Source of the DNA: Anaerolineae bacterium
GTDB taxonomy: Bacteria; Chloroflexota; Anaerolineae; 4572-78; J111
Assembly (NCBI GenBank): GCA_023382535.1
Contig: JAHDWA010000040.1
Span: 1-64,000, forward strand
DNA length: 64,000 nt
Direction: 5' to 3'
Part shown: positions 21,758 to 61,425 of the stretch, piece after piece
Layout: each line of letters opens with the position of its first letter
How positions within the stretch are numbered: position 1 is the first letter of the stretch
Program-made: the position numbers and the translations under genes
Notes under the pieces: model-generated
Database searches by the model: none
What the model was told of the DNA's origin: nothing
What the model saw: the letters and a program-made list of their open reading frames with translations, nothing else

Positions 21758-24316
21758 CTACTGAATTGGAACTACTGCGTTCGTCGTTAAGTACAAAAAA
21801 TCGTCGGGGCTGCCGTCGGTGCGGGGGAGGCGCTGGCCATTGCCTGCCTGATACAGCCCGACAATCAACGAGTACTCGCCGGCGGCCAGCTCAGCGGGCA
21901 ACTGCAAGCCGTATCCCTGCTGGAGTGTCTGGCCCGGCAGCAGCGGCGACTGCTTGAAGTTTTGCAGGTCCACTAACAGGCGGTCAACCTGCGCCACTCT
22001 TTGCCCCTCAGTTTTACCCAGTAATTGTACAAAAGCAATGAGGCTGTCCGTGGGTAGCCTCTGCCTGGCCAGGTCGGTGGCGGCAGGGACTTGCCAGGTC
22101 AAGCGCAGTTTTAATACCTCTCCCGGTACAAGCGCATCCCCCATCACTGAAAAATCTACCAGAGTCAGCCCGCCCTGGAAAGTGACATTCAGCGGCGTTG
22201 GGGCCGGCGGAGGAGTCTGGGCCAGGGCGTAGAGGGTTAACCGGCCGCTTTGCTCAAGCCACTGTTCTTGCAGCGGAAAGGCGTTCCGGTTAAGGTGAAT
22301 CGCCGTGACGGTTGGCGGGTCGCCTTGAGCCAGCCAGCGCTCGAAGAGCCAGACCCGCTGCGCCCGGGCCTCGACGGCCTGCCAAACATGTTCGCGCTCG
22401 GCGGGCTGGATGGCACGGGGATCGCTTTCAATCCAGGCGTAGGTGGGCAGCGGGCGGCGCAGGTAGGCCATCAGTCGGGTCGAGATTTCCTGGACATCGG
22501 CAAAGGGGGGCATCGGCAGCAGCAGTACATCGCCGGGACGGGCGGCGCTGTTGAGCTGGGCCAGGAGTGGCAGATCGAAGCGAGCCTGGTCATTCGCCAG
22601 GGCCACCCCGGCTGTATTACGCATCATCACGTAAGTCAGGGCGATGGTGAGTAAGAGCAGGATGAAGGCGACAAGAGGCGTAAAACGTAAAGCGTGACGC
22701 GTCTTGCGTCTTGCGTTCTGCGTAATACTTTTTAATTTCTCATTTCTTATTTCTTTCAGATAAGAAACAATCAGATTGGCTGTAGCCAACCCAAGCAAAG
22801 CCAGCGCCGGCAGCAGCACCCGCCACTGAATTTGGAGTCCCGCCGGGCCGGGTTGCAGCCAGATCAAATCCACCAGGCCCTCCTGCAAAATCTGCCAGTG
22901 GGCCAGCGGGGGAAAGACCGCCCAATTAAAAACAAAATTGTCGTTTGCGCCGAGCCGCAGAAAGTGCTCGTTGAAATCAACTAGGATGCCGAGGAGGTTG
23001 ACGATGAGGCTGAGGAAGACCAAAACGTAAAACGTGATGCGTGATGCGTAAAGCGTAAAGCGTGGTGCATCCCAAGGGGAGGCTACGCTCTGATGCGGGG
23101 TGCGTGGTATCAGAGCATTTTCGCTCCCCTGCTCCTCTGCTCCTCTGCTCCTCTGCTTCTCTACCTCTCGTCTCTTCGCTTCCTCGCCTCCTCGCGCTAT
23201 CGCTTCTGCCACAAAAACCATGAGCAGGGGCAAAATCGGCAGGAGGAAGCGCGGACCCCAGCCCCACGCGCCGCCCCAGGCAAACCACGAGCCGTAGAAG
23301 AGCCAGTAGCTCAGGCAAAGGGCTGTAATCAGCCAAAAATAGAGCCGGGGTAGTCGCTGCCAGGCCGGGCGCAGCCCCCAAAAAAGCATCAGCAGCAGCG
23401 GTGAGTAGATAAACAAGCCCCGGCCAGGACTAAAGAGCAGGCCGTAGGCGCCTACCCACGGCTCTTTGAACAAAATCTCCTGGCTGTAGCCAGTCTCGAT
23501 TAAACTCCCGAAGCGGACGTAGTTAAAATATAATAGACCGAAACCGATGAGGAGAGAAGGGGCAAGGTAAAGCGTAAAGTGTGAGGCGTAAAGTGTGAGG
23601 CGTGAGGCACGGACCTTTTCGCTCCTCCGCTCCCCTGCTCCCCTGCTCCTCTGCTCCTCTGCTCCTCGCCTCTCCACGGTCAGGTATAAGCCAACCAGCC
23701 CGAGGGCTATGACGGCCTCAAAACGGAGGGTCAGGCTGACAGCAACGGCCAGGCCGCAGAGTAATAACCACAGCCAGCGCCGCTGCGATTGAGCAAGGTG
23801 AGTGGCGTGGTAAGCGGCCCAGACCGCCATCAGAAAAATGAAGGCCAGCAGCGAGGACTCCCAGAACATTCGGGCGTAAACCCAGGCGATGGTGCATAGA
23901 CCGTAACCTAAAGTGGTCAGGACAGCCACCGTGGGCGCAAAGCCGAGATCAATCAGCCAGATAAAAAGGAGGCCGGCCGTCAGCGCGGTGACAACGGCGT
24001 TGGTCAGCAGACCGGCATGAACGGCGTTGAGACCGGGCAAAGCATGCCCCAGCCAGATGAGCGGCGCCGTGATAAAGGAGATGCCGGGCGGTTTTTTGGT
24101 GTAGAGATTGCCATCACTGCCCCAAATACCGGGCGGATTGGGCGTCCAATGGTTGGTCCAGATGAGTTGGTTAATGTCCGCGCGGCGATGTTGAGCCAGA
24201 TTGTGACCTGCCGTAAACACAGCCAGCTCGTCCATCACATGGAACTTGCCGGAAAAAGTGAAGAGATAAATCGAGAAGAGAAAAAGGCCGAGAGCGAAGG
24301 GGAGGGATTTAGACAT
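21758..24316 (-). CDS. GT39/PMT-like membrane glycosyltransferase with repeat-derived inserts
   Basis: An 852-residue protein with about ten to twelve membrane segments. The first external loop has the Asp-Glu pair of GT-C enzymes (FHVMDELAVFTAG). It ends in a beta-sandwich domain (LKLRLTWQVPAATD, then LPAELAAGEYSLIVGLYQ) shared with other large proteins in the window. It probably moves a sugar from a polyprenyl phosphate to an extracytoplasmic acceptor. Three insert regions near residues 209-252, 375-427 and 525-545 are translated repeats (GAEEQRSRGAG; ASRLTLYASHFTLY; FTLYASRITFYV). The start is the ATG at 24316, since the longer frame runs into a GGAAGG repeat. Confidence 0.8.
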   Translation of the reverse strand: MSKSLPFALGLFLFSIYLFTFSGKFHVMDELAVFTAGHNLAQHRRADINQLIWTNHWTPNPPGIWGSDGNLYTKKPPGISFITAPLIWLGHALPGLNAVHAGLLTNAVVTALTAGLLFIWLIDLGFAPTVAVLTTLGYGLCTIAWVYARMFWESSLLAFIFLMAVWAAYHATHLAQSQRRWLWLLLCGLAVAVSLTLRFEAVIALGLVGLYLTVERRGAEEQRSRGAGERRSEKVRASRLTLYASHFTLYLAPSLLIGFGLLYFNYVRFGSLIETGYSQEILFKEPWVGAYGLLFSPGRGLFIYSPLLLMLFWGLRPAWQRLPRLYFWLITALCLSYWLFYGSWFAWGGAWGWGPRFLLPILPLLMVFVAEAIARGGEEAKRREVEKQRSRGAEEQGSENALIPRTPHQSVASPWDAPRFTLYASRITFYVLVFLSLIVNLLGILVDFNEHFLRLGANDNFVFNWAVFPPLAHWQILQEGLVDLIWLQPGPAGLQIQWRVLLPALALLGLATANLIVSYLKEIRNEKLKSITQNARRKTRHALRFTPLVAFILLLLTIALTYVMMRNTAGVALANDQARFDLPLLAQLNSAARPGDVLLLPMPPFADVQEISTRLMAYLRRPLPTYAWIESDPRAIQPAEREHVWQAVEARAQRVWLFERWLAQGDPPTVTAIHLNRNAFPLQEQWLEQSGRLTLYALAQTPPPAPTPLNVTFQGGLTLVDFSVMGDALVPGEVLKLRLTWQVPAATDLARQRLPTDSLIAFVQLLGKTEGQRVAQVDRLLVDLQNFKQSPLLPGQTLQQGYGLQLPAELAAGEYSLIVGLYQAGNGQRLPRTDGSPDDFLYLTTNAVVPIQ
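22679..22740. repeat. CGTAAAGCGTG-family repeat inside a glycosyltransferase gene
   Basis: GCGTAAAACGTAAAGCGTGA is followed by CGCGTCTTGCGTCTTGCG, translated in frame near residues 525-545. Further copies are at 23030-23075 and 23565-23610 of the same gene and at 45682-45725 and 60735-60765 in two others. Confidence 0.75.
23030..23190. repeat. Composite repeat (CGTAAAGCGTG plus CTCCTCTGCTC units) inside a glycosyltransferase gene
   Basis: GTGATGCGTGATGCGTAAAG is followed by tandem CTCCTCTGCTCCTCTGCTC units. Read on the minus strand it gives Glu/Arg/Ser/Gly-rich and SRITFY-like peptides in frame. A sister copy lies at 23560-23690. Confidence 0.8.
23560..23690. repeat. Second composite repeat inside the same glycosyltransferase gene
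   Basis: AAAGCGTAAAGTGTGAGGCG units precede CTCCCCTGCTCCCCTGCTC tandem units. It encodes GAEEQRSRGAGERR and SRLTLYASHFTLY in frame. The layout is the same as at 23030-23190, which suggests both were inserted as one composite unit. Confidence 0.8.
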
Positions 24317-26480: not shown

Positions 26481-26496
26481 AAATCGTTACTGCTCA

Positions 26497-26602
26497 GGCT
26501 ACACAGAGCTTCACGGAGAAGGCATAGAGACGCACAAAGAAAAGCTAAAAATTTTTCTGTGTATCTCCGCCGGGTCTCTGCGCGTCTCTGTGACTTGTGC
26601 AG
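26497..26602. repeat. CACAGAG/CTCTGTG palindromic repeat between htpG and the aminotransferase gene
   Basis: CACAGAGCTTCACGGAGAAG and AGAGACGCACAAAGAAAAG are mirrored by TTTTTCTGTGTATCTC and TCTCTGCGCGTCTCTGTG. It lies just after the aminotransferase stop in transcriptional terms and may help end that transcript. Confidence 0.7.
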
Positions 26603-35944: not shown

Positions 35945-36541
35945 ATGGTCTTTGAAGTCGAACTAAAAGCCTGGTTGCGCCAGCCTGAGGTGATCGAAGC
36001 AAAAGCGGCGCAGATAGGTGCTTTTAAGGGGGAAACCCGCAAGGAAGATATCTATTTTCGGCGGCGCGGTGAGAAGAGCGCCGCGCCCGCCGACCGTTTC
36101 CGGCTGCGGCGAGAGGAGGGCCGGGCTGTTGCCAATTTTAAGCAAGAGGCCGTCACCGCGGGTGTCGAGGTCAACGAAGAGGTCGAATTTGGAGTGGACG
36201 ACGCCCACGCTTTTTTCCAATTTGCCGACCATTTTGGCTTTGAGCCGTTTGTCGTCAAGCGCAAAAAATCGCGGGTTTACCGCATCGAGCGGGCCAGTGT
36301 AGAATTGAATGAGGTGGAGTACCTCGGCCACTTTATTGAGATCGAGATTCTGTGCGACGATCCGGCCCTGGTCCCGGCGGCTCGCACCGAGATCGCCCGG
36401 TTGTATCACCACCTCGGCCTCCCCCCGGCCGAGCTGGAGCCGCGCCGTTATATCGAGTTGATCCAGGCTGCCCACCCGGTGCAGTACCGCTTTGTCAACG
36501 ACCGGACTCTCGATTGGCCGTTTACGGAATTTCCCTTGTGA
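35945..36541 (+). CDS. CYTH-domain protein (class IV adenylate cyclase / triphosphatase-like)
   Basis: A 198-residue protein that is all CYTH domain. It has the N-terminal ExExK metal/triphosphate motif EVELKA, basic strands FRLRREEG and NFKQEA, KRKKSRVYRI and the acidic EVEYLGHFIEIEI. CYTH enzymes hydrolyse or cyclise triphosphate substrates (ATP to cAMP, thiamine triphosphate, inorganic triphosphate). No additional domain points to one of these. It stands alone behind its own promoter and ends two bases from the convergent glycosyltransferase gene. Confidence 0.85.
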   Translation: MVFEVELKAWLRQPEVIEAKAAQIGAFKGETRKEDIYFRRRGEKSAAPADRFRLRREEGRAVANFKQEAVTAGVEVNEEVEFGVDDAHAFFQFADHFGFEPFVVKRKKSRVYRIERASVELNEVEYLGHFIEIEILCDDPALVPAARTEIARLYHHLGLPPAELEPRRYIELIQAAHPVQYRFVNDRTLDWPFTEFPL

Positions 36542-36543
36542 AT

Positions 36544-38622
36544 TTAGGGAAGCGTGGGCCAGTCAATGACTGCAGCGTTTTCCCCGCTGCTGTCGTTAAC
36601 AAGGGGCACGCGCTCCAGCGTGCTGGGATCATAAAAGCCCACGTACAGCCGGTAGGGTTGGTCGGCAGCGGGCAAGGGGAGGGGCAACTGTAAATAGGCG
36701 GCGTCACGCAGCCATTCCCCTCTTTGCTGCAAGGCATGCCAAACCTCCAAAGTTAGTAACCCTTCCAACAAAAAGTGGTCGGATTGAGCGATGATTTGCC
36801 CTTGACCGTTGCGCATTTGCACAAACACTTTTAGCTGGCGAGCCGGCGTGCCAGCGGGCCGCCAGTAGAGGCCCAGGGCAAGCGTGCCATCGGGGGCAAT
36901 CGTCGCAGGGTCAAGGCTGTAACCTCCCAGGTGAATCACGTTGCCAAAATTGGCGTCGAGGCTGGCGGCGGGTTCGGCGGGCAGCGGCCTGGGGTAAGGC
37001 CGGCTGAGGAAAACTTGAGTTGCGCCGGTTTGGTAGATTAAGTCCATCTGGGCCAGGATTTGCTGGGTAAAGAAAGGCTCAAAGCGCTCGAACAGGCGCG
37101 TTTGATCTACGACAAACCAAACCCGCTGGCCCTGCCCCAGGGCGACATTCAGTTCCTCGATCGAGTCAATCAGCGGGCTGCCGGTGTAGCGGTCAATGGG
37201 GGTGTCGCTCTCGTCCCCTTCAGGTAAAACCAGGGCGGTGACCTGGTTAGCGTAATAATCGCAGCGATCCAGGTAGAGATAGGCTGCCGCCGGGTGGACG
37301 GTCATCACCCGGTCGCCGGACTGCCAATTTTGGCGGACGTACGTAAAAGCGGTGTTGTAATCTCCCGTTCCCCGGGCCTGGGCCAATTCCCAGGCCGGCG
37401 GCCCCCATTGGACCACAATCAAGGCTACTCCGGCCAGGCCTGTCACCCCTCTTAACCCGGCTATAGACCAACGTGCCTGGCCCAACCGGGCCAAGAGTGC
37501 AGCCAGGCCGTCCAGCAGGCGAGCCAGACTGCCCGCGCCCAGTAACAAAAAAGCCGGCAGAGCCAGGATAAAAACGTAGCGGCTCTTGCTCCAGGTATCC
37601 GTTAACAGCGCCCCCATCTCAAAGATGACCAGCAGCCCAAACAGGGTCAGGAAGAGAAAGGCAATATCGGCGAAGGTGAAGCGTCGCCACAGCAGCCGGT
37701 ACAGGGTCATCAACAAAGACAGGCCAATCAGGGGTCGCAGCCAAGCGTAGGCCGAGGTTTCAAAGAAACCAAACAGGTTGTCAAAGCGGGACCACTCCAG
37801 GCCGGGGAGAAAAAAGCCGCGCAGGAACTCCAGCCCCAGCGGAGCGGGAGTTTGGGCCGACAGGTCTTGTAAAGTATTGGTGCTGCCCACCTGTCCCCTC
37901 GCCGCAACAGCCAGGACCAAGCCCAACAGCAGCGCCGCGACGAGACCTTCTTGCCATAAGCGGGGTTGGTTGAGCCAGTCGCGGCGGTAGATTAGAGTGA
38001 AGAGGAGGAGCAGCAGCGCCAGGGGCGGCACGATCAGGAAAGTGATGGTATGTGAAAATAGGGCCAGCGCCAAGAAAGCCAGGCCCAGGTAGCGTACTTG
38101 CCGGCTGGGACGCTTGACGGTGCCCAGCAGCAGCCAGGCCGTCCCCAGCAGCACAAACAGGTGAGCCGGGGTGTACATGCGCGCCCGGCTGCCCCAAATG
38201 ATAGACCACTCGTCCAGGGCTGCCAGCGTTGCCGCCAACAGACCGGCCAGGTGCGAGTCAAACAGCCGCCGGGCGGTCAGGTAATAGGCCGCCACAGTGA
38301 CGATACTAATGAGCAGGACCGGCCAGCGGGCAATCTCTTCCTTAAAATCCACCAGGGCCAGCAGTGTCCCGGAGAGAAAGGAGAGCAGCAGACCGTGGTC
38401 GTAAAACAGGCCGGAGGGCAGGACCGGCAGGCCGCGTTGGGCGACCATGCGGGCAGCCAGCATGCTGATATATTCGTCGAAGAAATACACGGACGCCAGA
38501 AGGTAAGAGAGGCGGAGCCAAAAAGCCATGAGCAAGAACAGCCAGAGGATGGAGCGCGTCCACCCAGGCGCGGATGAGTTTGGCAGTCTGCCAGGAATAA
38601 ACCCTCGCCCCGGGAGGATCAT
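36544..38622 (-). CDS. GT39-like membrane glycosyltransferase
   Basis: A 692-residue protein with about eleven membrane segments. It carries the GT-C Asp-Glu pair in YFFDEYISMLAARM, a GLLAATLAALDEWSIIWG segment and a C-terminal beta domain (LALGLYWRPAGTPARQLKVF, then YRLYVGFYDPSTLERVPL). It is a close paralogue of the gene directly upstream. Its ATG (38622) overlaps that gene's TGA stop in an ATGA arrangement, which fixes the start and implies translational coupling. It is the last gene of a long minus-strand run that begins at 52519. Confidence 0.82.
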   Translation of the reverse strand: MILPGRGFIPGRLPNSSAPGWTRSILWLFLLMAFWLRLSYLLASVYFFDEYISMLAARMVAQRGLPVLPSGLFYDHGLLLSFLSGTLLALVDFKEEIARWPVLLISIVTVAAYYLTARRLFDSHLAGLLAATLAALDEWSIIWGSRARMYTPAHLFVLLGTAWLLLGTVKRPSRQVRYLGLAFLALALFSHTITFLIVPPLALLLLLFTLIYRRDWLNQPRLWQEGLVAALLLGLVLAVAARGQVGSTNTLQDLSAQTPAPLGLEFLRGFFLPGLEWSRFDNLFGFFETSAYAWLRPLIGLSLLMTLYRLLWRRFTFADIAFLFLTLFGLLVIFEMGALLTDTWSKSRYVFILALPAFLLLGAGSLARLLDGLAALLARLGQARWSIAGLRGVTGLAGVALIVVQWGPPAWELAQARGTGDYNTAFTYVRQNWQSGDRVMTVHPAAAYLYLDRCDYYANQVTALVLPEGDESDTPIDRYTGSPLIDSIEELNVALGQGQRVWFVVDQTRLFERFEPFFTQQILAQMDLIYQTGATQVFLSRPYPRPLPAEPAASLDANFGNVIHLGGYSLDPATIAPDGTLALGLYWRPAGTPARQLKVFVQMRNGQGQIIAQSDHFLLEGLLTLEVWHALQQRGEWLRDAAYLQLPLPLPAADQPYRLYVGFYDPSTLERVPLVNDSSGENAAVIDWPTLP

Positions 38623-40721: not shown

Positions 40722-40734
40722 AGGACAATAATTG

Positions 40735-40797
40735 TGAATTGTGAATAGTCAATTGTGAATTGTGAATCTTCATTAACCATTCACAATTCACTTTTTT
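40735..40797. repeat. AATTGTGAATTGTGAAT repeat between the methyltransferase and glycosyltransferase genes
   Basis: Direct repeats of AATTGTGAATTGTGAAT are mirrored by ATTCACAATTCAC. It is AT-rich. The element is similar in style to 5881-5945. Confidence 0.65.
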
Positions 40798-43939: not shown

Positions 43940-46750
43940 TCACTCTCGAGAGGAGTCAGGTTTAACGCTTAACGTCCCTATGGTTAAACTATTGCCCTGC
44001 TCATTGCCGGCAATATCCAAGTAATTCAAACGTAAATTCAAATCCGGCTCATACATGCCGGCCAGCAGCGTGTAGTCGCCGGGGGGTAAGTCGGGCGGCA
44101 GCTTGAGCAGGTGCCGATCCAAAACCGTTTCCCCAGGAGTCCAGGTATTGGCATGAGAGAGTCCACAGACCGGGAAGTCATCAGCCTGGGCTACAACCTC
44201 TGCCTGACCTTCCTCTTGCGAGGAGAGCAAATGGATAAAGACCTTATAACGCAAACTCAGTAGGCTCTGCGCCTGCCAGTACAGGGTAATCGGGACAATC
44301 CCACCCGGCCGGGCATAATCCTGATTAATATCGTAACCTAGCAGGGCTACCCGGCCGGCCAACTGCCCGGCCCGCTCCAGGTACTCCGGTGGAGCATTAT
44401 TCTTTAATTCCGACCCCTCCCCCAGAACCAACGGCGGCTCCAGGAGCGCTTGTGGAGCCGCGGGTTTAGCCATCAATGCTGGGGCAAAATCGGCGGCAGT
44501 GACAGGCGGCTCAAAATAGGCCGGCTCGACCAGGTCAATCACGTCGGCGGGGTGGAGCGGTTGAAACTCTGAAATCGTCAGCCGCAGCCGCCCGTTCCCC
44601 CATAGGCGATAACGCGGGCTGTAACCGAAGTTGGCCGGATCGAAAGGGACATTAAAATCGCTGTCCCCTTTGTAAGTAATCTTTCCTTCCAGTACATAAC
44701 GCGGGTAGCACGGCGTCGAGGGATCACCCAACATATACCAGAGGGGAGCATTGCCGTCGTCGTTGCCGGCCCAGCTTCCCTCTAACTGACCCGTTCGCCG
44801 CAATTGGCCGACAAGCTGCCAGCCCAGGCGAAAAGGATAACCAAACCCGATCCGGGTGCCGTAGGGATAGGCGGCATCGGTCGGATAAAAATTACTCTTG
44901 TGCTCAGGATAAGTCAGTACGTACTCCACGTTGCTGCGCAGAAAGAGCATCAGCGCATGCCCGGCAAAAATCGCCAGAAGGCCGGCGGCGGCCGCAGCGG
45001 CTAACCAGCGTCCTGCGGGCTGGCGCAGGCCCGGCCAGCGGGACACGCTCCAGTGCCAGAGCTGCACTACCATCCAGCCGACCCAGAGGGTCAACGCGCC
45101 CAAAAAGAGGTAGTGATGCTTGCCCGGCCGGTTGACCAGAAAAACATACACCCAAAATGGCGGTGCCAGCCATAGCCAGAGAATTCTCTGCGGCATGTCT
45201 GTTTGCGGCGAAGGAATGACCCATCCAAAAAATAAGGCCAGACCCACGGCCAACAGCCCCGCCGCCAGTTGAACCCAGCCCAGCAGCCAGAGGACCGATC
45301 CACTCAGAAGCAACAGGGCGATTAGCAGGCGGGGGAGCAGGGGACTGCCAGCGCAGAGCGCCAGCCGAGGGGAGCGGAGGCGAGAGTTCTCCTCTCTACC
45401 CGCCTGCCCCCGGTAGTTCACGGGGGTGTTCCTCTGCATCTCGGCTAAAGCAACGATCACCAGCAGCAGCAGCAATCCGTCAAACAGGGCCACATAATAG
45501 GCCGAGTTATACTTCAGCGCCTCGTAGTAGAAAAAGTGGGCCAGGTTGTTAAAGGGCGGGCTGCTGCCCCCGCCAATCCGGTTTTCCAGGTAAGTCCCCG
45601 TGCTTTTGAGATTGGGGTTGAGTGCGAAGGGTATGTAAAATAGGGCGACCGGTACAATGAAAAGGAGGAGGGAGGGCCAGAAACGTGATACGTGATACAT
45701 GATACGTGATACATGATGTGTGAGGCGAAGAAGTTGCAAAACTGATCTTTCCTCGGCTCCTCGCTGCTTCGCTTCTTCGCGGCTCCCCGGCAAGGCAGAG
45801 GCAAAGGTCAGGTAGGCCGCAACGGGTAACAACAAAATCGTCTCGAAATGAAACAGACAGGCAGCGGCCAGTAAAAATGTCGCCAGGCTGTGCCAGTGTC
45901 GAGATTGGCTGCCGGTTTGGTAAAAACGATAGTAGCCATAAATAGCGGTTAGGGTCAACAACAGCACCACGCTTTGATATTGGGCCGTGCGGGCGTAGGA
46001 GACAAAAACCCCATCCACAGCAGCCAGCAGGCCGGCAATCAGGCCCACCCAGGGATTGAATAAGCGCTGCCCCAAGAGAGCGATTAATCCAACAGCGATG
46101 GTTCCGGCAACGGCGAAGGGCAGCCGGGCGGTCTGCTCGTCAAAGCGGCCGGTCAAAGTGCCGATGGCGTTGAGTAATAAAATTTCGCCGGGACCTTTGG
46201 AATGGGTCAACAAGGCATCCCCTTGCCCATAAACCAGTGAGACGGCCCGCAGCAGGATATCGGCCTCGTCACCCTGGTAGTCAGAGTAGTGGATATTGAT
46301 AACACGGAAGCAAGCAGCCAGAAGGAGAATCAGAATAACCGAGTAGGCGAATCGGCGAGTGGGCAAGGAAGAAAACCTCTCTGGTTTTGGATCATTCGCC
46401 ATTCGCTGATACGCTGCTTCGCGCCGCCAGGCAATCAGGGCAAAGAGCAGGGTTAATCCACCCAGGCCAAAGCCGACAGAAAGGGTGTTGAGAGGCAGCC
46501 GCGCCAAGGCCATTAACAGTAGTAATATAGTTGTTAAACTGTAACTTATCGGCACGGCGATAAGCCATTGTTCTGGCTGGGTCAGATGTTCGGATTGCGG
46601 CCGGAGCGCCAGCAGCAGTGCATAACCCGGCAAAAAGGCAATCAGCAGCAACCCGGCGCTCAACTGCCAGGGATACCAGGACACCACCAGGACGAGCAGA
46701 GGCAGCAGGATGGCGCTCGCTCCCAGAATGATCAAATTGCTATTCTTCAT
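43940..46750 (-). CDS. Large GT39-like membrane glycosyltransferase with extra N-terminal membrane domain
   Basis: A 936-residue protein. Residues 1-105 add about four membrane segments before the GT-C core, whose Asp-Glu pair is in YSDYQGDEADILLRAV near residue 160. The core is followed by a soluble segment and a C-terminal beta domain (IVPITLYWQAQSLLSLRYKV, then LPPGDYTLLAGMYEPDLNLR). Two repeat-derived inserts are translated in frame: one near residues 107-137 (GCGAATGG family) and one near 320-370 (EEAKQRGAEER, then THHVSRIMYHVSRF). Confidence 0.8.
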   Translation of the reverse strand: MKNSNLIILGASAILLPLLVLVVSWYPWQLSAGLLLIAFLPGYALLLALRPQSEHLTQPEQWLIAVPISYSLTTILLLLMALARLPLNTLSVGFGLGGLTLLFALIAWRREAAYQRMANDPKPERFSSLPTRRFAYSVILILLLAACFRVINIHYSDYQGDEADILLRAVSLVYGQGDALLTHSKGPGEILLLNAIGTLTGRFDEQTARLPFAVAGTIAVGLIALLGQRLFNPWVGLIAGLLAAVDGVFVSYARTAQYQSVVLLLTLTAIYGYYRFYQTGSQSRHWHSLATFLLAAACLFHFETILLLPVAAYLTFASALPGSREEAKQRGAEERSVLQLLRLTHHVSRIMYHVSRFWPSLLLFIVPVALFYIPFALNPNLKSTGTYLENRIGGGSSPPFNNLAHFFYYEALKYNSAYYVALFDGLLLLLVIVALAEMQRNTPVNYRGQAGREENSRLRSPRLALCAGSPLLPRLLIALLLLSGSVLWLLGWVQLAAGLLAVGLALFFGWVIPSPQTDMPQRILWLWLAPPFWVYVFLVNRPGKHHYLFLGALTLWVGWMVVQLWHWSVSRWPGLRQPAGRWLAAAAAAGLLAIFAGHALMLFLRSNVEYVLTYPEHKSNFYPTDAAYPYGTRIGFGYPFRLGWQLVGQLRRTGQLEGSWAGNDDGNAPLWYMLGDPSTPCYPRYVLEGKITYKGDSDFNVPFDPANFGYSPRYRLWGNGRLRLTISEFQPLHPADVIDLVEPAYFEPPVTAADFAPALMAKPAAPQALLEPPLVLGEGSELKNNAPPEYLERAGQLAGRVALLGYDINQDYARPGGIVPITLYWQAQSLLSLRYKVFIHLLSSQEEGQAEVVAQADDFPVCGLSHANTWTPGETVLDRHLLKLPPDLPPGDYTLLAGMYEPDLNLRLNYLDIAGNEQGNSLTIGTLSVKPDSSRE
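45640..45790. repeat. Composite repeat inside the large glycosyltransferase gene
   Basis: ACGTGATACGTGATACATGA tandem units are followed by TCCTCGGCTCCTCGCTGC-like units. This is the same composite order as at 23030-23190 and 23560-23690, and it encodes HHVSR and GAEER peptides in frame. Confidence 0.75.
46338..46430. repeat. GCGAATGG-family inverted repeat inside the large glycosyltransferase gene
   Basis: GGCGAATCGGCGAGTGG is mirrored by CATTCGCCATTCGC. It corresponds to the intergenic element at 5120-5160. Confidence 0.7.
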
Positions 46751-46997: not shown

Positions 46998-49535
46998 TCA
47001 CTGAGCGATAACAGGGATTTGACTCAGACCCTGCCGGCTGACTTCCGCTTCGGTGGCGGCGTCGAACACGGCGACTTCCAGTTGGTAGATTCCTGGTTTT
47101 ACTTCAGCGGGAAGGTTTAGCAACCAGGGGTCCTGAACAATTTGCCCCGACCGCCACTCGGTCGAAGGATACCCACTCCGCACCGGGCGGCCGAGCCAGT
47201 AGGCGGCTTCTTGCCCCTCTTGATCGAGCAGTCGCAGCAAAATGACGTAATCATGGGTGACATTAGCCAAAGCTTGCCAATAGAGTGTAACCCAGACGTT
47301 AGTTCCGGGCGCTGTCTTTTCCGGCTCCAGATTATACCCGGCCAGGGCCAGATCATCATTAACTGCCAGCCTGAAAGGATGCGGGGGTTGAAAGGTTTGG
47401 GGATAGGCGGCGGCGCGGGTGACATGGATGGGCTTGGTATCCTCGGGCAGTTCGAAGTGGCCGATAATTTCACCACTGTCGGTGCGAAAACCAGGTTTGA
47501 AGAAATAATCGCCCGGCGGCATGCCGACCGGCAGGGTTAATATCGCCTCGCTTTCGAGAATAGCCTCGCGCTGGCGGTTGGCTTCTTCAAAGCCGGGCCG
47601 CGGCTGGGCGATGGCTTCAGCCCAAACGTAGCCATCCAAATCCATCAAGCGCACAAAAAAGCGATCCGTTTCAAGCTGGCCCTCGTTGCGCCAGAACAGG
47701 GTGACCGACAGGGTGTCGCCGGCAGCAAGTTCGACCTCACTGCCTGCCCCGCTTTTGCAAGGAGAAAGGAGAGGACAGAAATTATAGCCAAACAGCGTGC
47801 CGCGCCCTTCGAGTTTGAATCCGCCGCCGTAATAGTGGGCTGCCGGGCCGGGGTAAAGCCAGGCGTACTCCAGGCCGTGCAATGTCACCGTAAAAACCGG
47901 CGGCTGGCGCTCTAGGTAATTCAGAATATTAGGATCGTGTTTGCCGCGCTGTAACTGGGAAATGTAAATCAGGGTATAATCGCTTTGCACCCAGCGGCCA
48001 TCCTGATTGTCCAGCGGGATGGTCTGGCCGCTGAAAACGGGATCAATTTTAGTAGAATTGGCCAGGGCGAGCTTTATGTTCTGGGCCTCTGGCTGGTGAT
48101 TGAGATAAGCCGCTACCTGATCAAGGCCCTCCCCTGCACCCACCGGCAGAATATGAACGGCTTGCCGCAGGCCGCCCAGGATAGGATTCCAGTAGGTGTA
48201 GTAATAGGGATGGTGCGGAAGCGCCACAACCATTTGCAGTCCCAAAACGAGCAGGGCAGGGAGCCAGGCCATATTTAGGATTTTCGATTGTTGACTATCC
48301 CTTGCTGTCAGCCAGCGCCAGGCAGCAACCAGGCCCAGGGCGGTCAGGAGATTCAATGGAGGCAGCATAGGAATGATGAAGCGGTCATACTTGAGGGTTG
48401 AGCGCGTGATTAGGGCCAGGTAGACGAGCAAGAAAAGCAGAATGGCGCTCAACAATGCAGGAGAGACAGGCAATATCCTAGCTGTTTTCTTTTGAGTGAA
48501 TGTTTCTGCCCGGCCTCTGGCAGACCAGATAACCCCCCCAATAAGTAGAATCAAACCCAGCCACAGGACCGGGCTGGTTCGATATAACAGCACGGTTGGG
48601 TAGAACAGCGGGCCAACCTCTTCATCGGTCAGCTCTTCGCCCAAGAGGAAGCTTTTGCCGCCCACGTTGCCTTCTTCAACCCGCACCCCGACGTATTCGG
48701 ACATTTGTTGAACTACCTGGGTTGGACTAACCCACAGGGCCGGCCAGACCACAAAGATAGTCAGCAGCAAGACGCTGCCAAAAACCAGCAGAGCAACAAC
48801 CATCGCTTGCAGTCGTTTGGTCATCGGGTAGAGCCGGTTAAACAGCGCTACCCCGCCGATCATGATCCCGGCTACCGGCAGCAGAGCCGCGGCCGAAATC
48901 TTGCTCAGGATAGCCAGGGCGGTTAAGGCTCCGGCCAGGGCGCTGTAGCCGAGCTTGCGCCGCTGCAGATAGAGCAGCAAGGCCAGCAGGGCCAGCATCG
49001 TCAAGCCGGTCAGAATACCTTCACTGCGCAGCGCCCGCGACTCGGTCAACAAAAAAGGGTCGAAGGCTAACAAAAAGCCGAAGAGCCAGGCTGTGGCATG
49101 GCCAAACAGCCGGTAGACCAGCAAGACAGCCAAAACTAATAACAGGGCATTGCTGCCGGCCAGAATCTCTCGTTTGGCGCTCAAATTGGCCATCGAGTCT
49201 TCCGGGCCGATGAGTCTCTCCCACTCAACCGGATGGCCCACGAGACGCTGATAGCCGTAACGTACTCCTGCGCCAATTGTCTCTAGCCACATCAAGGTCA
49301 CGCCGGGGTGACCATCCTGATACGTCTCGGCCCAATTCCCACTCGTTACCGCACGAGCGAAATTGGCGGAGCGCCGATCCCAGGTAAACTCATCCGGCCC
49401 GACAAAAACATCCAACGCCGGCAGGCGGGGGATCAGGGCCAGGACGAAGATAGCTAGCGCCAGAACCAGGGGTGAGCTTACCACGGGACGGGTGAGCGAA
49501 TGAGCCAAAGAACGGACAGAGGCGAGGGTCGTCAT
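46998..49535 (-). CDS. Large GT39-like membrane glycosyltransferase, two C-terminal beta domains
   Basis: An 845-residue protein. The GT-C core (residues 22-470) has the Asp-Glu pair in VFVGPDEFTWDRRSANFA and the subfamily motif DGHPGVTLMWLE, shared with the proteins at 49538-52519 and 52767-55742. Residues 590-845 hold two successive beta-sandwich repeats (LSVTLFWRNEGQLE to MPPGDYFFKPGF, and VWVTLYWQALANVT to KPGIYQLEVAVFD). It starts two bases after the stop of the preceding gene, so the pair is coupled. Confidence 0.82.
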   Translation of the reverse strand: MTTLASVRSLAHSLTRPVVSSPLVLALAIFVLALIPRLPALDVFVGPDEFTWDRRSANFARAVTSGNWAETYQDGHPGVTLMWLETIGAGVRYGYQRLVGHPVEWERLIGPEDSMANLSAKREILAGSNALLLVLAVLLVYRLFGHATAWLFGFLLAFDPFLLTESRALRSEGILTGLTMLALLALLLYLQRRKLGYSALAGALTALAILSKISAAALLPVAGIMIGGVALFNRLYPMTKRLQAMVVALLVFGSVLLLTIFVVWPALWVSPTQVVQQMSEYVGVRVEEGNVGGKSFLLGEELTDEEVGPLFYPTVLLYRTSPVLWLGLILLIGGVIWSARGRAETFTQKKTARILPVSPALLSAILLFLLVYLALITRSTLKYDRFIIPMLPPLNLLTALGLVAAWRWLTARDSQQSKILNMAWLPALLVLGLQMVVALPHHPYYYTYWNPILGGLRQAVHILPVGAGEGLDQVAAYLNHQPEAQNIKLALANSTKIDPVFSGQTIPLDNQDGRWVQSDYTLIYISQLQRGKHDPNILNYLERQPPVFTVTLHGLEYAWLYPGPAAHYYGGGFKLEGRGTLFGYNFCPLLSPCKSGAGSEVELAAGDTLSVTLFWRNEGQLETDRFFVRLMDLDGYVWAEAIAQPRPGFEEANRQREAILESEAILTLPVGMPPGDYFFKPGFRTDSGEIIGHFELPEDTKPIHVTRAAAYPQTFQPPHPFRLAVNDDLALAGYNLEPEKTAPGTNVWVTLYWQALANVTHDYVILLRLLDQEGQEAAYWLGRPVRSGYPSTEWRSGQIVQDPWLLNLPAEVKPGIYQLEVAVFDAATEAEVSRQGLSQIPVIAQ

Positions 49536-52766: not shown

Positions 52767-55742
52767 ATGGCCGTTTTCACTGTTCGCGGAAAAAAGGATG
52801 GCCGCCAGAGTGGGCTGTTTTTCAAGCGCGCTCTGCTCGGGGTCATTTTGATCGCCCTGGTCATGCTGCCGCGCCTGCTCAACCTCGATATTTTTATTGG
52901 CCCCGACGAAATGGCCGAATTGGGCCGGGATAACAACTTTGCCCTGGCCCTGGCCAGGGGCGATTTGGCCGGAACGTTGGTCGGCGACGGCAAGCCGTCG
53001 GTGACGTTGATGTGGATCAATACCGTGGGCGTAACCGGCAAGTGGCTCTGGCTGCGCCTCAGCGGCGACCCGCGCCCATTCGAGCAGGTCGTTGCCCCGG
53101 AGCGCCCTTTTTCGGTCTGGCCGGAACGGCGGATGTTCCTGGCCCTGGTCAGCGGCCTGCAAATTCTGGCAGCGTGGCTCCTCCTGCGGCGTATCTGGAA
53201 TGAGCAAATTGCCACCCTTGCCGTGGGGTTGATGGCCCTGGAGCCATTCCTGCTGGCGTTCACCCGCATCATTCGGGGCGATGCGCTGCTGGCCGGGTTC
53301 ATGATCCTGTCCCTTCTTGGCGCTTTAGCCTTTTTGAAGACCGGCCAGCGCGGCTACAACTTTTTTTCGGGGGCCATGGCCGGGCTGGCCCTGCTGACCA
53401 AGCTCTCCGGCGGGGCGATGGTGATCACGATTGCGCTGCTGTACGGAATAGCTCTACTCAATCAGCAAAAGGTGTGTGGCCCAACTTCCTCGCCGGAGCA
53501 GATACGGAAAGAGGATGGTTTAAATTCATCCTTCCGCCCTCATCCTTCCGCCTTCTTCATCTGGGCGTTTGCTGCGGCCGTCATCTTTTTCGGCCTGTGG
53601 CCGGCCTGGTGGTTCCGGCCCGTGGAAACGTTCGATCTTCTCTGGAATAAGGGTCTGTTCCACGCCGTTGAGGCCGGTCAGGGAGGAGCGGAGCTTTACT
53701 TTTGGGGAGCGGTCCACCCTTCTGGCCCCGGCCTGTGGTTCTATCCGGTGCTGGCCGGGCTGCGTTTGACCCCGTGGCTGTTACTGGGCAGTTTTATCGC
53801 GGTTGGACGCTGGCTCTGGTCAAACCTCCGCCGGCGAGCCGGTCCTGAGCTAACCCTGTTAGGCGTGCTGATCTATATCGGGGTTTACTGGCTGGTCATC
53901 ACCCTCCCCGACCAGAAACTTGACCGCTTTTTTACGCCAATCGTGCCTGCCCTGGCTATTTTGACGGCTGTCGAGGTGGCTAACCTGGTTCAATGGCTTT
54001 CGGAACGGGCGAATCATCGCTTAAAACAAGTACCGATTATGTTCCACGTTTCACGTCTCACCTATCCGGCCATCCTTCTCATCGGCCTGGCTCTCACCTG
54101 GCATGTTAGCCGCTACCATCCCCTGTATTCCACCTATTTCAATCCGCTGAGCGGCCCGCCGGAGTTTTGGGCTTGGGCCTTACCCATCGGTCACGGGGAG
54201 GGAGTCAATACTGCGCTGTCATACCTTTCAAATCAGGACGATATGGCCGCTAAGACCCTGGTTTGTGGCACCAATCTACCCCGCTGCGAACCCTTCTTTG
54301 GCGGAAAATTGCTACCTCAGGAAGATCTGCGCTCCGGGGCGTGGTTCAAAGCCGATTATGTTTTATGGCACGTTGACGAGGAACAAATGGATGTTTTTCC
54401 TGCCGAAGTGCTGGCTTATCTGCGCCGCCAGCCGCCGGTTTTTGTCGCTCGTTATGATGGCCTGGATTATACCTGGCTCTATCCCGTCCCCCGGCCCGCT
54501 TTTCTGGCTTCAGAGGCCCGGCTGGAAGGCGTGGCCCGGCTTTATGGTTACGACGCCGGTCAGGATTTCGCCGGGCTGAAACCGGGAGATAGGATCAACC
54601 TGCGGATCTACTGGCAAAACGAGGGGCAGGCGCAGCAGCAGCAGTTTTGGTGGCGGGTAGTGGATGGATCGGGCTATGTTTGGAGTGAGGCGGCCGCCCG
54701 GCCTTTACCCGAATTCGAGGCGGCTGCCTCTCAAAAAGGGGCTGTTGTGGAAGGAGCAGTCAGCCTGACCCTGCCGGCTGATATGCCTCCTGGCCCTTAT
54801 GTCTTGAAGGCAGGCTTTGCCAAGGCCCAAGAGGAAGTGGGGCAGTTTCCGCTGCCGGCGGACGGCAGCAGATTGGTTGTCTCCGGGGTTCCTGTTGGTC
54901 CCAGCCAGCCCATCCATGTTCTGGATCACCTGCTGGCTCCAGGGCTGCGCCTGCGTGGCTATGATCTTTCGAGCGATAAGGCAGTACCCGGCGAGACAAT
55001 CTGGCTGGTCCTTTTCTGGCAGGCGGTCAGTTCAATTCAGCGGGATTATGCGCTCACCTTGCGCCTCGTTGACCCAACCGGGCAGCCGGTGCAGGAGTGG
55101 CCTAAGCTCCAGCCCGTGTCCAACACCTACCCCACCTCCGCCTGGCCGGCCAACAGCAGCGTGCGCGGTCCCCAGCCAGTGTCGCTAGCAGAAGAACTGG
55201 CTCCGGGGCAGTACCGGTTTGAACTGGGCCTGGTTGATGGTACCGCTCCCTCTTCTGCAGCGGATAAGGTTGGAGTAGGAGTAATCAACGTAGTGTCCCG
55301 TAAAACTGTCTTCGACGCGCCGCCGATGCAGTTCCCGGCCAAGGCCGTTTTTGGCGACATAGCCACCCTTTTAGGCTACGATCTGGCCGGCGACCTGTCA
55401 CCCGATGGTGTTCGCGTAACGGTGACGCTTTACTGGCAAGCTCAAAGGAGCACTACCCAGCCTTATCAGGTTAGTCTACGTCTGGTAGATAGCAGCAGCA
55501 ACACAACGCTGGCCGAGCAAACAGCCGAACCAGTGCAGGGGAGCGCGCCGACAACCGGTTGGCAAGCCGGAGAAATCATCACCGACCGGCATGAGCTGGT
55601 GACTGCCAGCAGCCAGCCCGCTTCGGTTAATCTGGAAATCCGGTTTTTAGCCGATACTCACCAGCCGGCCCCGTTAGCCGACGGCCAACCGTTTTTTGTT
55701 GTGCCTGAAGTACAGCAAAAAGTATCCTGGCGCACCCCCTAA
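52767..55742 (+). CDS. Large GT39-like membrane glycosyltransferase, three C-terminal beta domains
   Basis: A 991-residue protein, divergent homologue of the two preceding genes. The core has IFIGPDEMAELGRDNNFA, GDGKPSVTLMWIN and a YFNPLSGPPEFWAWALPIGHG external segment. Residues 590-991 hold three beta repeats (INLRIYWQNEGQAQ, IWLVLFWQAVSSIQ, VRVTVTLYWQAQRST). Repeat-derived inserts occur near residues 235-265 and 425-435 (FHVSRLTYPA). It leads a three-gene plus-strand unit with the next glycosyltransferase and an SGNH hydrolase. Confidence 0.82.
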   Translation: MAVFTVRGKKDGRQSGLFFKRALLGVILIALVMLPRLLNLDIFIGPDEMAELGRDNNFALALARGDLAGTLVGDGKPSVTLMWINTVGVTGKWLWLRLSGDPRPFEQVVAPERPFSVWPERRMFLALVSGLQILAAWLLLRRIWNEQIATLAVGLMALEPFLLAFTRIIRGDALLAGFMILSLLGALAFLKTGQRGYNFFSGAMAGLALLTKLSGGAMVITIALLYGIALLNQQKVCGPTSSPEQIRKEDGLNSSFRPHPSAFFIWAFAAAVIFFGLWPAWWFRPVETFDLLWNKGLFHAVEAGQGGAELYFWGAVHPSGPGLWFYPVLAGLRLTPWLLLGSFIAVGRWLWSNLRRRAGPELTLLGVLIYIGVYWLVITLPDQKLDRFFTPIVPALAILTAVEVANLVQWLSERANHRLKQVPIMFHVSRLTYPAILLIGLALTWHVSRYHPLYSTYFNPLSGPPEFWAWALPIGHGEGVNTALSYLSNQDDMAAKTLVCGTNLPRCEPFFGGKLLPQEDLRSGAWFKADYVLWHVDEEQMDVFPAEVLAYLRRQPPVFVARYDGLDYTWLYPVPRPAFLASEARLEGVARLYGYDAGQDFAGLKPGDRINLRIYWQNEGQAQQQQFWWRVVDGSGYVWSEAAARPLPEFEAAASQKGAVVEGAVSLTLPADMPPGPYVLKAGFAKAQEEVGQFPLPADGSRLVVSGVPVGPSQPIHVLDHLLAPGLRLRGYDLSSDKAVPGETIWLVLFWQAVSSIQRDYALTLRLVDPTGQPVQEWPKLQPVSNTYPTSAWPANSSVRGPQPVSLAEELAPGQYRFELGLVDGTAPSSAADKVGVGVINVVSRKTVFDAPPMQFPAKAVFGDIATLLGYDLAGDLSPDGVRVTVTLYWQAQRSTTQPYQVSLRLVDSSSNTTLAEQTAEPVQGSAPTTGWQAGEIITDRHELVTASSQPASVNLEIRFLADTHQPAPLADGQPFFVVPEVQQKVSWRTP
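53470..53560. repeat. Repeat insert in a glycosyltransferase gene (AAAGAGGATGG / CATCCTTCCGCC)
   Basis: GGAAAGAGGATGGTTTAAAT is mirrored by TTCATCCTTCCGCCCTCATC. It is translated as a polar loop between two membrane segments. Confidence 0.65.
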
Positions 55743-59364: not shown

Positions 59365-61425
59365 TTATTGAGAGAAGCTGATCTCGCCAATGACGTAGAT
59401 GCTGGGATAAAGCCGTTCACTCGCCACGGGTAAAATTCGGATCCGGTCATACCCCTGCAAGGCTGCTGCTTCTGGAATTTTAATCGGCGAGGTAACTCCT
59501 GCTGCGGGAATTTGAGCCGGTAGTTGGAGGGTTTGGTCTGCTACCGGCGCGTCGCCGTGGTAATAAACCAACTGGTAATCGTCCTGCTCCGCCGGAATTT
59601 CTGTCCCCCTGGAAATTAACCTGATTTGGGCTTGCTGCGCATAGTGCAGCGCACCCAGATTTAGCTCGATGCCGGCGTAGTCGGTCAAGTGATTGGCTTC
59701 ACTCCACAACCTTTTGGCCGGACCGAGCCGACTCACTTGAAAGAATGGGCGATACGCGGCCAGCCAGGCGTTGTATTGGCCGGTATTCAGTTTCCAGATT
59801 TCGACCAGGCGGTTGCGGTCAAACAGGGGACCCCGAACGGCCCAGGCCAGTTTGTCGTAATAGGCAGCCAGTTCGGGCGGGGCCAACTGATTTTGGCCCG
59901 ATTGCAGCGTTTCGAGGTAGCCCGGCGGGATGTGACGGGTAAAGTGACCGATGCGCCAATCGGGACTGAGTTCAGCCGGAAGACGAGCCAGCAGCGGGTC
60001 GGCTAGGGCCATTTTATCCACGACGTACACCTGCGGGCCGGCAAAAAAGCCAAAATAACCAATCGCTCCCCGGATTTCGACCGCCGGGCCGGCCTGTCGA
60101 GCGGCCTGGCCCTTAACGACCCAATCATGATTGGGCCAGGTCAGACCAGGGTTTTGGAGCGCCCGGAGCAGGCCCGACGCCTGGTAGTAGTAAGCCCGTT
60201 CATCCTCGATGCCGTAGCGGTCGCGGATGCCCTCGCGATTCTGCCCATACGCGGCGTCGCTCAGCAGGGGCGAGCGGGGCGAAAGCAGGCCAACCAGCAG
60301 AATGATGCCCAGCAGCAGCCCCCACCCGGGCAGCCTGAGCCGTTGAACGTTAAACGTTGAACCTTGAACATTCAACACTAAAAGCGTGGCCGCTACAAAA
60401 AGAGGCGCTGCCAAAAAACGGCCGCTCATGAAATCGCCCCCAATTTTGACAATGTAAATGAGATAAAGGATCACGCCCAGGGCCAGCGTTATTTTACGGG
60501 ATTCTCTGGCTGTGAAAGCGGTAAGCAGGCCCAGGACAATTACGAGCAGGGTCAAAGGGTCTGAGCGAAGCGAGTTTGACAAGTAGTAGAAACCGACAGT
60601 CAGGAGAGTTGCCTGGCCGATGCCGGTGTTTAGTTTGGCGTAGGCGGTGTTGGGAAAAAGAAAACCATAATAAAACAGGGAGAAAAATTCCCACAGGATA
60701 AAAGGGATAAAACCGGCAATTATCACCATCAAACGCAAAGCGTAAAGCGTCAAGCGTGAAGGAGTCAGGTTGGCCGTCTGCTGCGGTATTAAAAATAACC
60801 AGGCGTAGCCGAGCGGCGGAAGAAAAAACAATAAGGTGTCCATCCGGTTGAGCGTGGCTAACGCAGCGATCAAGGCCAGCCAGAACAGGGTTTGAAGGTT
60901 AAAGCCCGGCTGCCGGTGCGACAAATAAAGCCAGAGAAAAAGTGCCAGCAAGAGATAGGTCAGCGGGTTCTCCAGGCCGGAGGTAGCGTAATCCACAAAG
61001 GCTTTGGAGCAAGCTAAGATCGTTACCCCCAGCGCCGCCGCTCCGGGCGAGCCAACAACTTTGAGGGCGAACACCAGGATGGCCGCCAGAGACACCAGCA
61101 TAGACAAAAACAGGCTGGTGTAAAAAATCTCGCCGGTAAAGGCGTAAACGGCGGTCACTAAAAACAGCCACAGGGGGTGGGTGTAAGCCTGGACTCTCTC
61201 CGTGACATTCCAGGTGAGGCCATAACCATTGACCCAGTTATCGGCGGTTCTAAAGGTGATGTAGGCATCATCGCTGAGCCAGGCGCTGCGGAACATGACG
61301 ACGGCAAAGACAAGTATGGCCAGCGCAGCAATTAATTTGTCGCGCCTCAGGGCCAGATGGGTCATCTGCCGCACAGCCAAGGGGCTTGCTTCAAGTTGCT
61401 CGGGGGCTGCCTGGGGTCTGTTCAC
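59365..61425 (-). CDS. AftB/ZomB-like GT-C membrane glycosyltransferase
   Basis: A 686-residue protein with about eleven membrane segments. The first loop has a double Asp (SDDAYITFRTADNW) followed by GLTWNVTERVQAYTHPLW. This pattern recalls mycobacterial AftB-type arabinofuranosyltransferases and ZomB, rather than the Asp-Glu loop of the other glycosyltransferases here. The soluble tail has a lone beta region. Repeat-derived peptides occur near residues 220-230 (SRLTLYALRLM) and 350-360 (VLNVQGSTFNVQR). The GTG start (61425) overlaps the TGA of the upstream SGNH gene. Confidence 0.7.
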   Translation of the reverse strand: MNRPQAAPEQLEASPLAVRQMTHLALRRDKLIAALAILVFAVVMFRSAWLSDDAYITFRTADNWVNGYGLTWNVTERVQAYTHPLWLFLVTAVYAFTGEIFYTSLFLSMLVSLAAILVFALKVVGSPGAAALGVTILACSKAFVDYATSGLENPLTYLLLALFLWLYLSHRQPGFNLQTLFWLALIAALATLNRMDTLLFFLPPLGYAWLFLIPQQTANLTPSRLTLYALRLMVIIAGFIPFILWEFFSLFYYGFLFPNTAYAKLNTGIGQATLLTVGFYYLSNSLRSDPLTLLVIVLGLLTAFTARESRKITLALGVILYLIYIVKIGGDFMSGRFLAAPLFVAATLLVLNVQGSTFNVQRLRLPGWGLLLGIILLVGLLSPRSPLLSDAAYGQNREGIRDRYGIEDERAYYYQASGLLRALQNPGLTWPNHDWVVKGQAARQAGPAVEIRGAIGYFGFFAGPQVYVVDKMALADPLLARLPAELSPDWRIGHFTRHIPPGYLETLQSGQNQLAPPELAAYYDKLAWAVRGPLFDRNRLVEIWKLNTGQYNAWLAAYRPFFQVSRLGPAKRLWSEANHLTDYAGIELNLGALHYAQQAQIRLISRGTEIPAEQDDYQLVYYHGDAPVADQTLQLPAQIPAAGVTSPIKIPEAAALQGYDRIRILPVASERLYPSIYVIGEISFSQ

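Follow-up and report, generated by a model that had tools for sequence, protein, structure and literature searches.

Tandem heptamer arrays have been on record in bacteria since 1990 (Mazel, 1990, as cited in PMC4692102), and both the arrays and their abundance in cyanobacteria are known already, while there is no agreed origin for them. The short tandemly repeated repetitive (STRR) sequences, or heptameric simple sequence repeats (SSRs), of Nostoc, Calothrix and Xanthomonas are multi-copy 7-mers arranged head to tail, some of them G-rich, with a preference for intergenic DNA (PMC4692102). Here we describe arrays of a related kind in a 64-kb stretch of an Anaerolineae genome (contig JAHDWA010000040.1, positions 1 to 64,000; this whole stretch is referred to as the window), which has 57% G+C and encodes many large membrane proteins. 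Its closest named proteins are in records labelled Chloroflexota, Anaerolineales or Anaerolineae bacterium, apart from one labelled Rubrivivax. Like the STRR, these are dispersed, multi-copy 7-bp units repeated head to tail, some of them G-rich, but they differ in including 8-mers, in an inverted and mixed two-armed layout with a G-to-C polarity, in their frequent in-frame use within genes, and in having hosts in the Chloroflexota and Acidobacteriota.

Other described systems share some of these properties. The TAACTGA heptamers of Beggiatoaceae also form arrays common to distant phyla, but they represent one family that is intergenic and nearly all direct (PMC4679880), whereas many families, paired arms and coding arrays are found here. 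The repetitive extragenic palindromic (REP) sequences and the doublets termed REPINs have two inverted copies that form a hairpin between genes (PMC3116915), while the arms in the present case are tandem 7- or 8-mers of interchangeable families, for which no link to a transposase was found. In head-to-head interstitial telomeric sequences the G-rich strand is directed at the joint from either side, and by our comparison the same geometry is found here, although the present arrays are bacterial, with units of 7-8 bp, many unit families, and no telomerase shown. The bacterial enzyme DRT10 makes short tandem repeats, but its products are 9-nt repeats in ncRNA-templated, protein-primed cDNA (PMC12632851). 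No description of the two-arm polarity rule, of arm exchange at orthologous coding sites or of a cross-phylum octamer was found in a search outside which most subscription journals lay, and the octamer letter strings retrieved only papers that are unrelated by title.

The two-arm rule, in which a G-rich array faces a C-rich one and the arms are interchangeable, was seen in Chloroflexota, Cyanobacteria and, in part, an acidobacterium, and it makes testable the questions of what extends or copies the arms and why this occurs in that sense. It accounts for odd, fast-changing peptides such as GAEEQRSRG, SRLTLYALRF, RRQEAGG and TQHSALST in predicted Anaerolineae and Nostoc proteins, and it provides a natural case of non-triplet repeats that evolve within genes with the frame intact. 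On balance, we favor the reading that these are two-armed repeat loci whose arms are changed by slippage and template switching and are shaped by selection.

Arrays of 7- and 8-bp Units

A single detector for periods of 5-12 bp was applied to the window and to four further sequence sets, from the Chloroflexota genomes G319 and G293, the cyanobacterium Microseira (G005) and an acidobacterium (G008). Nearly all of the window has a syntenic counterpart in the relative G319, with a nucleotide identity of 91.2% across 61,356 aligned bases. The window has 21 arrays of 7- or 8-bp units, at rates per 100 kb of 21.9 (period 7) and 10.9 (period 8), compared with 0.0, 6.2, 1.6, 0.0, 0.0 and 4.7 for periods 5, 6, 9, 10, 11 and 12, and periods 7 and 8 peak in all five sets. 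Chance or coding bias as the source of the arrays is ruled out by this period comparison together with the random-place controls given below. In addition to the octamer GAGCAGRG and the heptamer TTTACGC, the unit families of the window include AATTGTG, AATTGAC, GATTTAC, CGATTTA, GAGTAGA, CGTTGAA, TTCATCC-like units, TGGAAGGT, GCGAATGG, GGAAGAAT and others. Many of the loci were picked for their octamer or heptamer content (20 of 35 in G319, 20 of 25 in G293, and all 20 in both G005 and G008), which biases abundance, and we see no reason for a bias in polarity. Array totals and the counts of inverted partners, orientation and location may enter both arms of one locus separately, while the polarity and consensus-unit counts, made on 203 pairs of neighbouring arrays no more than 60 bp apart, enter each pair once.

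The original prediction had listed seven places in at least four large membrane proteins. All seven contain arrays of 7- or 8-bp units, they fall in four open reading frames (ORFs) encoding proteins of 877, 936, 991 and 686 aa (Table 1), and the related peptides that were quoted (SRITFY, SRLTLYALRL, FHVSRLTY and others) are present in the translations. The prediction had not noted the other unit families of the window or the inverted pairing of its intergenic arrays. As to the further claim that the carriers are glycosyltransferases, the 936-aa and 991-aa proteins reach the Pfam cut-off for PMT_2, and the 877-aa and 686-aa proteins have no Pfam match and match NCBIfam glycosyltransferase models only below the cut-off. 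A 700-aa protein (Table 1) matches PMT_2 below the cut-off.

A Two-Armed Layout with Fixed Polarity

The inserts are members of a class of two-armed repeat loci that, read on either strand, have the layout (G-rich 7/8-mer)n - short joint - (C-rich 7/8-mer)m. An inverted partner lies within 130 bp of 5/21 arrays in the window, 22/191 in G319, 90/277 in G293, 75/184 in G005 and 49/112 in G008, compared with 0/21, 1/190, 2/276, 3/183 and 1/111 at random places, so that the overall share is 12-44% of arrays as opposed to 0-2% of random places. Partners on the same strand within the same distance number 0, 12, 18, 23 and 13, respectively.

The polarity is evident from the 203 neighbouring pairs. 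Inverted pairs of one family run G..C in 69 cases and C..G in two, with one G..G pair and 40 that have no G/C bias, and pairs of unlike families run G..C in 35 cases and C..G in one, with 17 G..G, 14 C..C and 15 unbiased pairs; the other nine are pairs of one family on the same strand. As in head-to-head interstitial telomeric sequences, a G-rich array is therefore followed by a C-rich array at the joint (69:2 and 35:1). Every family with at least two paired arrays keeps one 5' orientation, the sole exception being a family of G005 (19 vs. 2). Octamer arrays are convergent in 40 and divergent in two cases (2/0 in G319, 8/0 in G293, 5/0 in G005, 25/2 in G008 and none in the window), and in the window, G319, G293 and G005 a heptamer array lies downstream of 19 and upstream of one of 95 octamer arrays. 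The polarity thus holds in Chloroflexota and in a cyanobacterium, and in the acidobacterium for same-family pairs only.

This polarity bears on the composite inserts of the window, which on the plus strand have ATGCGTG or ACGTGAT first and then CCTCTGCT or CGCTGCTT. The genes at the composites are on the minus strand, and hence the peptide order is GAEEQRSR and then FTLYALR; the coding strand reads the octamer G-rich (GAEEQRSR, hydrophilic) and the heptamer C-rich (FTLYALR), and the opposite strand of the heptamer holds TAA. Fixed polarity alone therefore gives a charged octamer peptide followed by an SRLTLY peptide, the order that had been noticed in three places and that is indeed found on the coding strand in the 877-aa protein, at linkers 1 and 2, and at 45679-45790. 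The suggestion drawn from this order, that the composite was inserted as one unit, is not supported, since the octamer and the heptamer each also pair with their own family or with other families, each also occurs alone, and one arm is exchanged, with the other kept, at orthologous Nostoc sites (see below). Insertion of a single octamer-plus-heptamer block was rejected on the same grounds, and the layout is a polar one with the octamer and heptamer as its two mutually independent arms. Fold-back copying of one arm as the only source is weakened, because mixed arms keep the polarity and because the consensus unit differs between the arms in 87 of 112 same-family pairs, where the consensus is rough as the arrays are short and imperfect.

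Plain replication slippage, in which chance 7- or 8-mers expand in place with no exchange between loci, has been proposed as the cause of the heptamer excess (PMC4692102), and it would give the unit-sized length differences seen at orthologous arrays. We regard it as quite improbable as the whole explanation, since it leaves unexplained the inverted partners (from 5/21 up to 49/112, vs. 0 to 3 in controls), the polarity, and a high-copy octamer that is shared by three phyla and found in 0/200 Pseudomonadota genomes. The polarity would be explained best by a telomerase-like addition, whereby a reverse transcriptase would extend both 3' ends of a break by G-rich repeats of 7 or 8 nt before the ends are joined head to head, such that the G-rich strand would run to the joint from both sides as it does in head-to-head telomeric repeats. 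There are precedents in the bacterial reverse transcriptase DRT10, which carries out a telomerase-like addition of 9-nt repeats (PMC12632851), and in mammalian interstitial telomeric repeats, which are said to be inserted at breaks (PMC7215372). Nevertheless, a large set of templates would be required for the many unit families of each genome, and the DRT10 products are described as protein-primed cDNA, with no report of chromosomal entry in the available text (PMC12632851), so that this type of addition is in our estimate distinctly improbable.

Turnover of the Arms within Genes

The inserts within genes have an open frame, their lengths differ among close relatives and the net change is frame-neutral. 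Between the window and G319 there are 25 coding indel clusters, 12 of which have a step of at least 5 bp. In every one of these 12 the net change is divisible by 3 even though single steps are often 7, 8, 14, 16, 28 or 32 bp; not all of the 12 are at called arrays. As neither 7 nor 8 is a multiple of 3, an array yields the same repeating peptide in any frame, and as 7a+8b is a multiple of 3 whenever a and b are equal modulo 3, an insert made of a 7-mer arm and an 8-mer arm is frame-tolerant.

The 877-aa protein contains three linkers that are hypervariable while its remainder is conserved (16 sequences, 63-99% identical overall). In linker 3 the heptamers are joined to a different, A+T-rich 7-mer, and the linker is a net 42 bp longer in G319. 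From the protein comparison, P0001 (98% identity) is 8 aa shorter in linker 1, equivalent to 24 bp or three octamer units, and the octamer part of linker 2 is missing in P0005 and P0006. The 936-aa protein (18 aligned proteins) is variable at its composite in the same way. In G319 there are an additional 18 bp at 53545 in the gene for the 991-aa protein and an additional 21 bp (three TTGGATT) in the array near 48290 of that for an 845-aa protein, and the 60737 array of the 686-aa gene is not present in the relatives P0129 and P0130 (11 sequences). In three of the four carrier proteins, those of 877, 936 and 686 aa, the inserts are in gap-rich, non-conserved columns, and the original prediction, for which alignment of the inserts with conserved functional residues would have been fatal, withstands this comparison. 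The predicted structure of the 877-aa protein (mean predicted local distance difference test score, pLDDT, of 46.3) is too poor to place loops and was not used as evidence.

The dispersed repeat nested between the two arms of linker 2 falls within a stretch that is lacking in G319. This ~22-bp repeat, TCCCAAAGGGAGGCTTCGCTCT, has seven matches in the window, G319 and G293, the others being at L114 2662, L141 10298, L146 5951, L116 9006, L191 13837 and L195 338. Five of the seven are within 60 bp of a called array and five, by eye, directly follow the GCG of a GCGT-type heptamer; by our reading the repeat gives SERSLPLG or SAKPPLGT in several homologues. REP-like sequences of the type CTTGTCCTGAGCGTAGTCGAAGG occur in G319 at the places of window 22669 and 9100; one of them is in frame within the 877-aa gene, and P0004 carries the matching peptide FDYAQDK.

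Orthologous sites in Nostoc provide a view of the exchange of arms. Locus L228 of the Nostoc genome G004 was matched in all 11 genomes of its genus examined (G004 included), and two sites in one open frame have orthologous inserts of 43-171 bp in which two arms can be recognized by eye. Of the segments that were placed, 20/21 (including the two of the reference) are in frame without a stop; at the second site no placement was obtained for target L249, and at site 787 one of 11 orthologues (L247, 115 bp) is out of frame, which is either a natural failure or an assembly error. In G004 the G-rich arm consists of an octamer array and in the other genomes mostly of a heptamer or nonamer array, with GAGCAGGG at site 787 of G004 and GGCAGGR, GAGCAGG-like or GGGAGACAA arrays elsewhere, and an AT-rich joint and a C-rich ACTCAGC arm are recurrent. 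The layout thus persists at orthologous coding sites while one arm is swapped. As at 23070-23092 of the window, other short repeats are nested inside the arms at the Nostoc sites, also in frame. The protein with both sites has no Pfam match. A third Nostoc place is in what we take to be a peptide-synthetase-like gene, and a related copy in another genome (L277) is without the insert. Two more dispersed families are present in G004 (L213, 3936-4069 and 3667-3715), with many copies in the genus among the matches listed.

Membrane Proteins, Other Genes and Intergenic DNA

The proposal that membrane loops are tolerated landing sites stands for the Chloroflexota but is not general. With transmembrane (TM) segments counted by a hydropathy window and ORFs called by length only, 13/14 coding arrays of the window are in ORFs with at least six predicted TM segments, and such ORFs account for 49% of residues. 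The figure is 12/13 (21% of residues) for ten stretches of G319 unselected for repeats, and in array-holding stretches it is 87/112 in G319 (27%) and 75/138 in G293 (22%), while in the cyanobacterium G005 it is 0/30, with such ORFs holding 3% of residues. The membrane preference in G319, in both the unselected and the array-holding stretches, might indicate that the loops are selected protein linkers, with charged and then aromatic segments, and that the DNA repeats are a by-product. However, repeats of the same layout are found between genes and in non-membrane cyanobacterial genes, and there are relatives without the linker or the arm (P0129 and P0130, and P0005 and P0006 for the octamer part of linker 2). 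We therefore consider selection for linkers as the origin of the repeats to be extremely unlikely.

Arrays are in ORFs in 14/21 cases in the window, 121/191 in G319, 155/277 in G293, 35/184 in G005 and 57/112 in G008, and since ORFs cover 80-94% of the sets, intergenic DNA is over-represented. Arrays with an inverted partner are intergenic in 5/5 cases in the window, 16/22 in G319, 56/92 in G293, 67/76 in G005 and 19/50 in G008, and genic arrays are mostly without such a partner, with the exception of G008 (30 without, 27 with).

Distribution of the Octamer and the Heptamer

Exact double copies of the heptamer TTTACGC are numerous in G319 alone (22 matches), and any match is found in 4/26 genomes. 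The exact double octamer GAGCAGRG has 26 matches in G319, 63 in G293, 47 in G284 and 3 in G256, and none in seven other relatives; the exact pattern used for G319, G293 and G284 was a shorter one. The phyla were surveyed with a 20-base octamer pattern and one mismatch allowed, overlapping matches in one array being counted separately. Matches were obtained in 9/301 genomes of Chloroflexota (up to 63 matches, with at least seven in 4/301), 11/199 of Acidobacteriota (up to 65, at least seven in 2/199) and 14/117 of Cyanobacteria (up to 447, at least seven in 6/117), and in 0/200 of Pseudomonadota. Reversed-pattern controls matched in 2/301, 3/199, 1/117 and 0/200 genomes of Chloroflexota, Acidobacteriota, Cyanobacteria and Pseudomonadota, with at most two matches in one direction. 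Single octamer matches are thus at the control level and only the richer genomes count. The survey centres G008 and G004 had originally been found through the octamer. The octamer GAGCAGRG is abundant, therefore, in scattered genomes of Chloroflexota, Cyanobacteria and Acidobacteriota. When genome contigs were scanned for the octamer-GAAAA joint, 79 stretches were obtained, of which only three qualify as arrays by our test (in a Microseira, a Nostoc and an acidobacterium).

The main rival to slippage and template switching is transposition of elements like REPINs or miniature inverted-repeat transposable elements (MITEs), where a transposase would move palindromic units whose arms drift by slippage, with mixed arms as recombinants or nested insertions. 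The inverted arms, the constant orientation and the intergenic bias (outside G008) all resemble REPINs (PMC3116915), and genes for Y1_Tnp (PF01797) are present in 21/23 genomes searched. Their presence is unrelated to that of the octamer, however, as they are also found in G266, G340, G215 and G014, which have no octamer match. Moreover, the arms are arrays of 7- or 8-mers rather than one conserved 16-20-mer, arms of unlike families are joined with the same polarity, and the layout of a site is kept while one arm changes. Transposition of this type is a possibility, then, but an unlikely one.

A Proposed Mechanism of Slippage and Template Switching

Arms of the same family can pair as a hairpin and are mostly intergenic except in the acidobacterium, while single arms and arms of unlike families are also found within genes. 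From the layout, the turnover and the frame-keeping, which are observed, we infer the following motor. The arms would lengthen and shorten by slippage and, as DNA is replicated or repaired, would be exchanged by switching of templates among similar loci, with a tendency for every 3' end to be elongated with the G-rich strand. Selection would purge hairpins from genes, and the mixed or single arms that remain would be tolerated in disordered loops of membrane proteins, with lengths compensating modulo three.

Several observations weigh against this mechanism. A precise empty site did not come to light in the Chloroflexota, nor did a clean occupied-empty pair in the comparison of the window with G319. 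The same-strand neighbours (G..G 17, C..C 14 and the nine of one family) depart from a strict two-arm rule, and arrays are enriched in intergenic DNA per length (in the window, ORFs cover 94% and hold 14/21). In the acidobacterium G008, heptamers do not follow octamers (0/73 downstream, one upstream), unlike-family pairs are divided between one G..C and one C..G, and paired arrays are in called ORFs in 27 cases and intergenic in 19, with a crude ORF caller.

A further proposal, by analogy with telomeres, is that some bacteria have an end-extension activity that, at breaks or collapsed forks, would lengthen the 3' ends by G-rich repeats of 7 or 8 nt. Its repertoire of templates would include at least one, GAGCAGRG, that is common to Cyanobacteria, Acidobacteriota and Chloroflexota, and the extended ends would be joined head to head to leave scars in the form of intergenic hairpins and, where the arms are unlike, of translated, frame-tolerant loops within genes. 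This is speculative and probably incorrect, but if it were true such scars would be the bacterial counterpart of interstitial telomeric repeats.

Features of the Window

The features discussed above, together with the remaining repeat-carrying membrane proteins and the intergenic inverted pairs, are listed in Table 1.

Table 1. Repeat arrays and the genes that carry them in the 64-kb window (strand and remarks as far as assigned).
Position	Strand	Feature	Remark
2308..2376		Intergenic inverted pair, arms GATTTAC/GATTTTG and CCAAAATC	+7 bp in G319
5107..5170		Intergenic inverted pair, arms GCGAATGG and CCATTCGC	
5873..5945		Intergenic inverted pair, arms AATTGAC	
21758..24391	-	Putative glycosyltransferase of 877 aa, a membrane protein whose three linkers are built of repeats	NF047440 match below cut-off
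22679..22765	+	Linker 3, heptamer arrays CGTAAAG, GCGTCTT and ATTTCTT array	
23026..23068	+	Heptamer arm of linker 2, built of CGTAAAG / CGTGATG	
23070..23092	+	Small dispersed repeat TCCCAAGGGGAGGCTACGCTCT, enclosed by the two arms of linker 2	
23123..23195	+	Octamer arm of linker 2, GCTCCTCT units followed by CTCGCCTC units	
23567..23608	+	Heptamer arm of linker 1, built of GTAAAGC / GTGAGGC	Coding strand reads SRLTLYASHFTLY
23621..23667	+	Linker 1 octamer arm, GCTCCTCT	Coding strand reads GAEEQRSR
24316..24413		8-mer arrays TGGAAGGT / TCCAATCC about where the 877-aa gene probably starts	
38619..40721	-	700-aa membrane protein	GAGTAGA array 39501-39527, small dispersed repeat adjoining
40728..40792		Intergenic inverted pair, arms AATTGTG and ATTCACA	
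43940..46750	-	936-aa GT39-like membrane protein (PMT_2)	
45679..45727	+	Heptamer arm of the 936-aa gene, ACGTGAT	Reads HHVSRIMYHVSRF
45761..45790	+	Octamer arm of the 936-aa gene, TCGCTGCT	Reads EEAKQRGAEERS
46998..49535	-	845-aa membrane protein	GATTTTC-type array near 48290
52767..55742	+	991-aa PMT_2 protein	Arrays 53526-53552 (TTCATCC-like) and 54042-54065 (heptamer GTTTCAC, FHVSRLTY)
59365..61425	-	686-aa membrane protein	Heptamer arrays 60341-60369 and 60737-60761

Larger differences from G319 were also seen. An imperfect palindrome of ~110 bp at 26490-26600 of the window is missing at the syntenic place in G319, and G319 has extra sequence of ~10 kb at window 36529-36557 and of ~3.3 kb at 33893.

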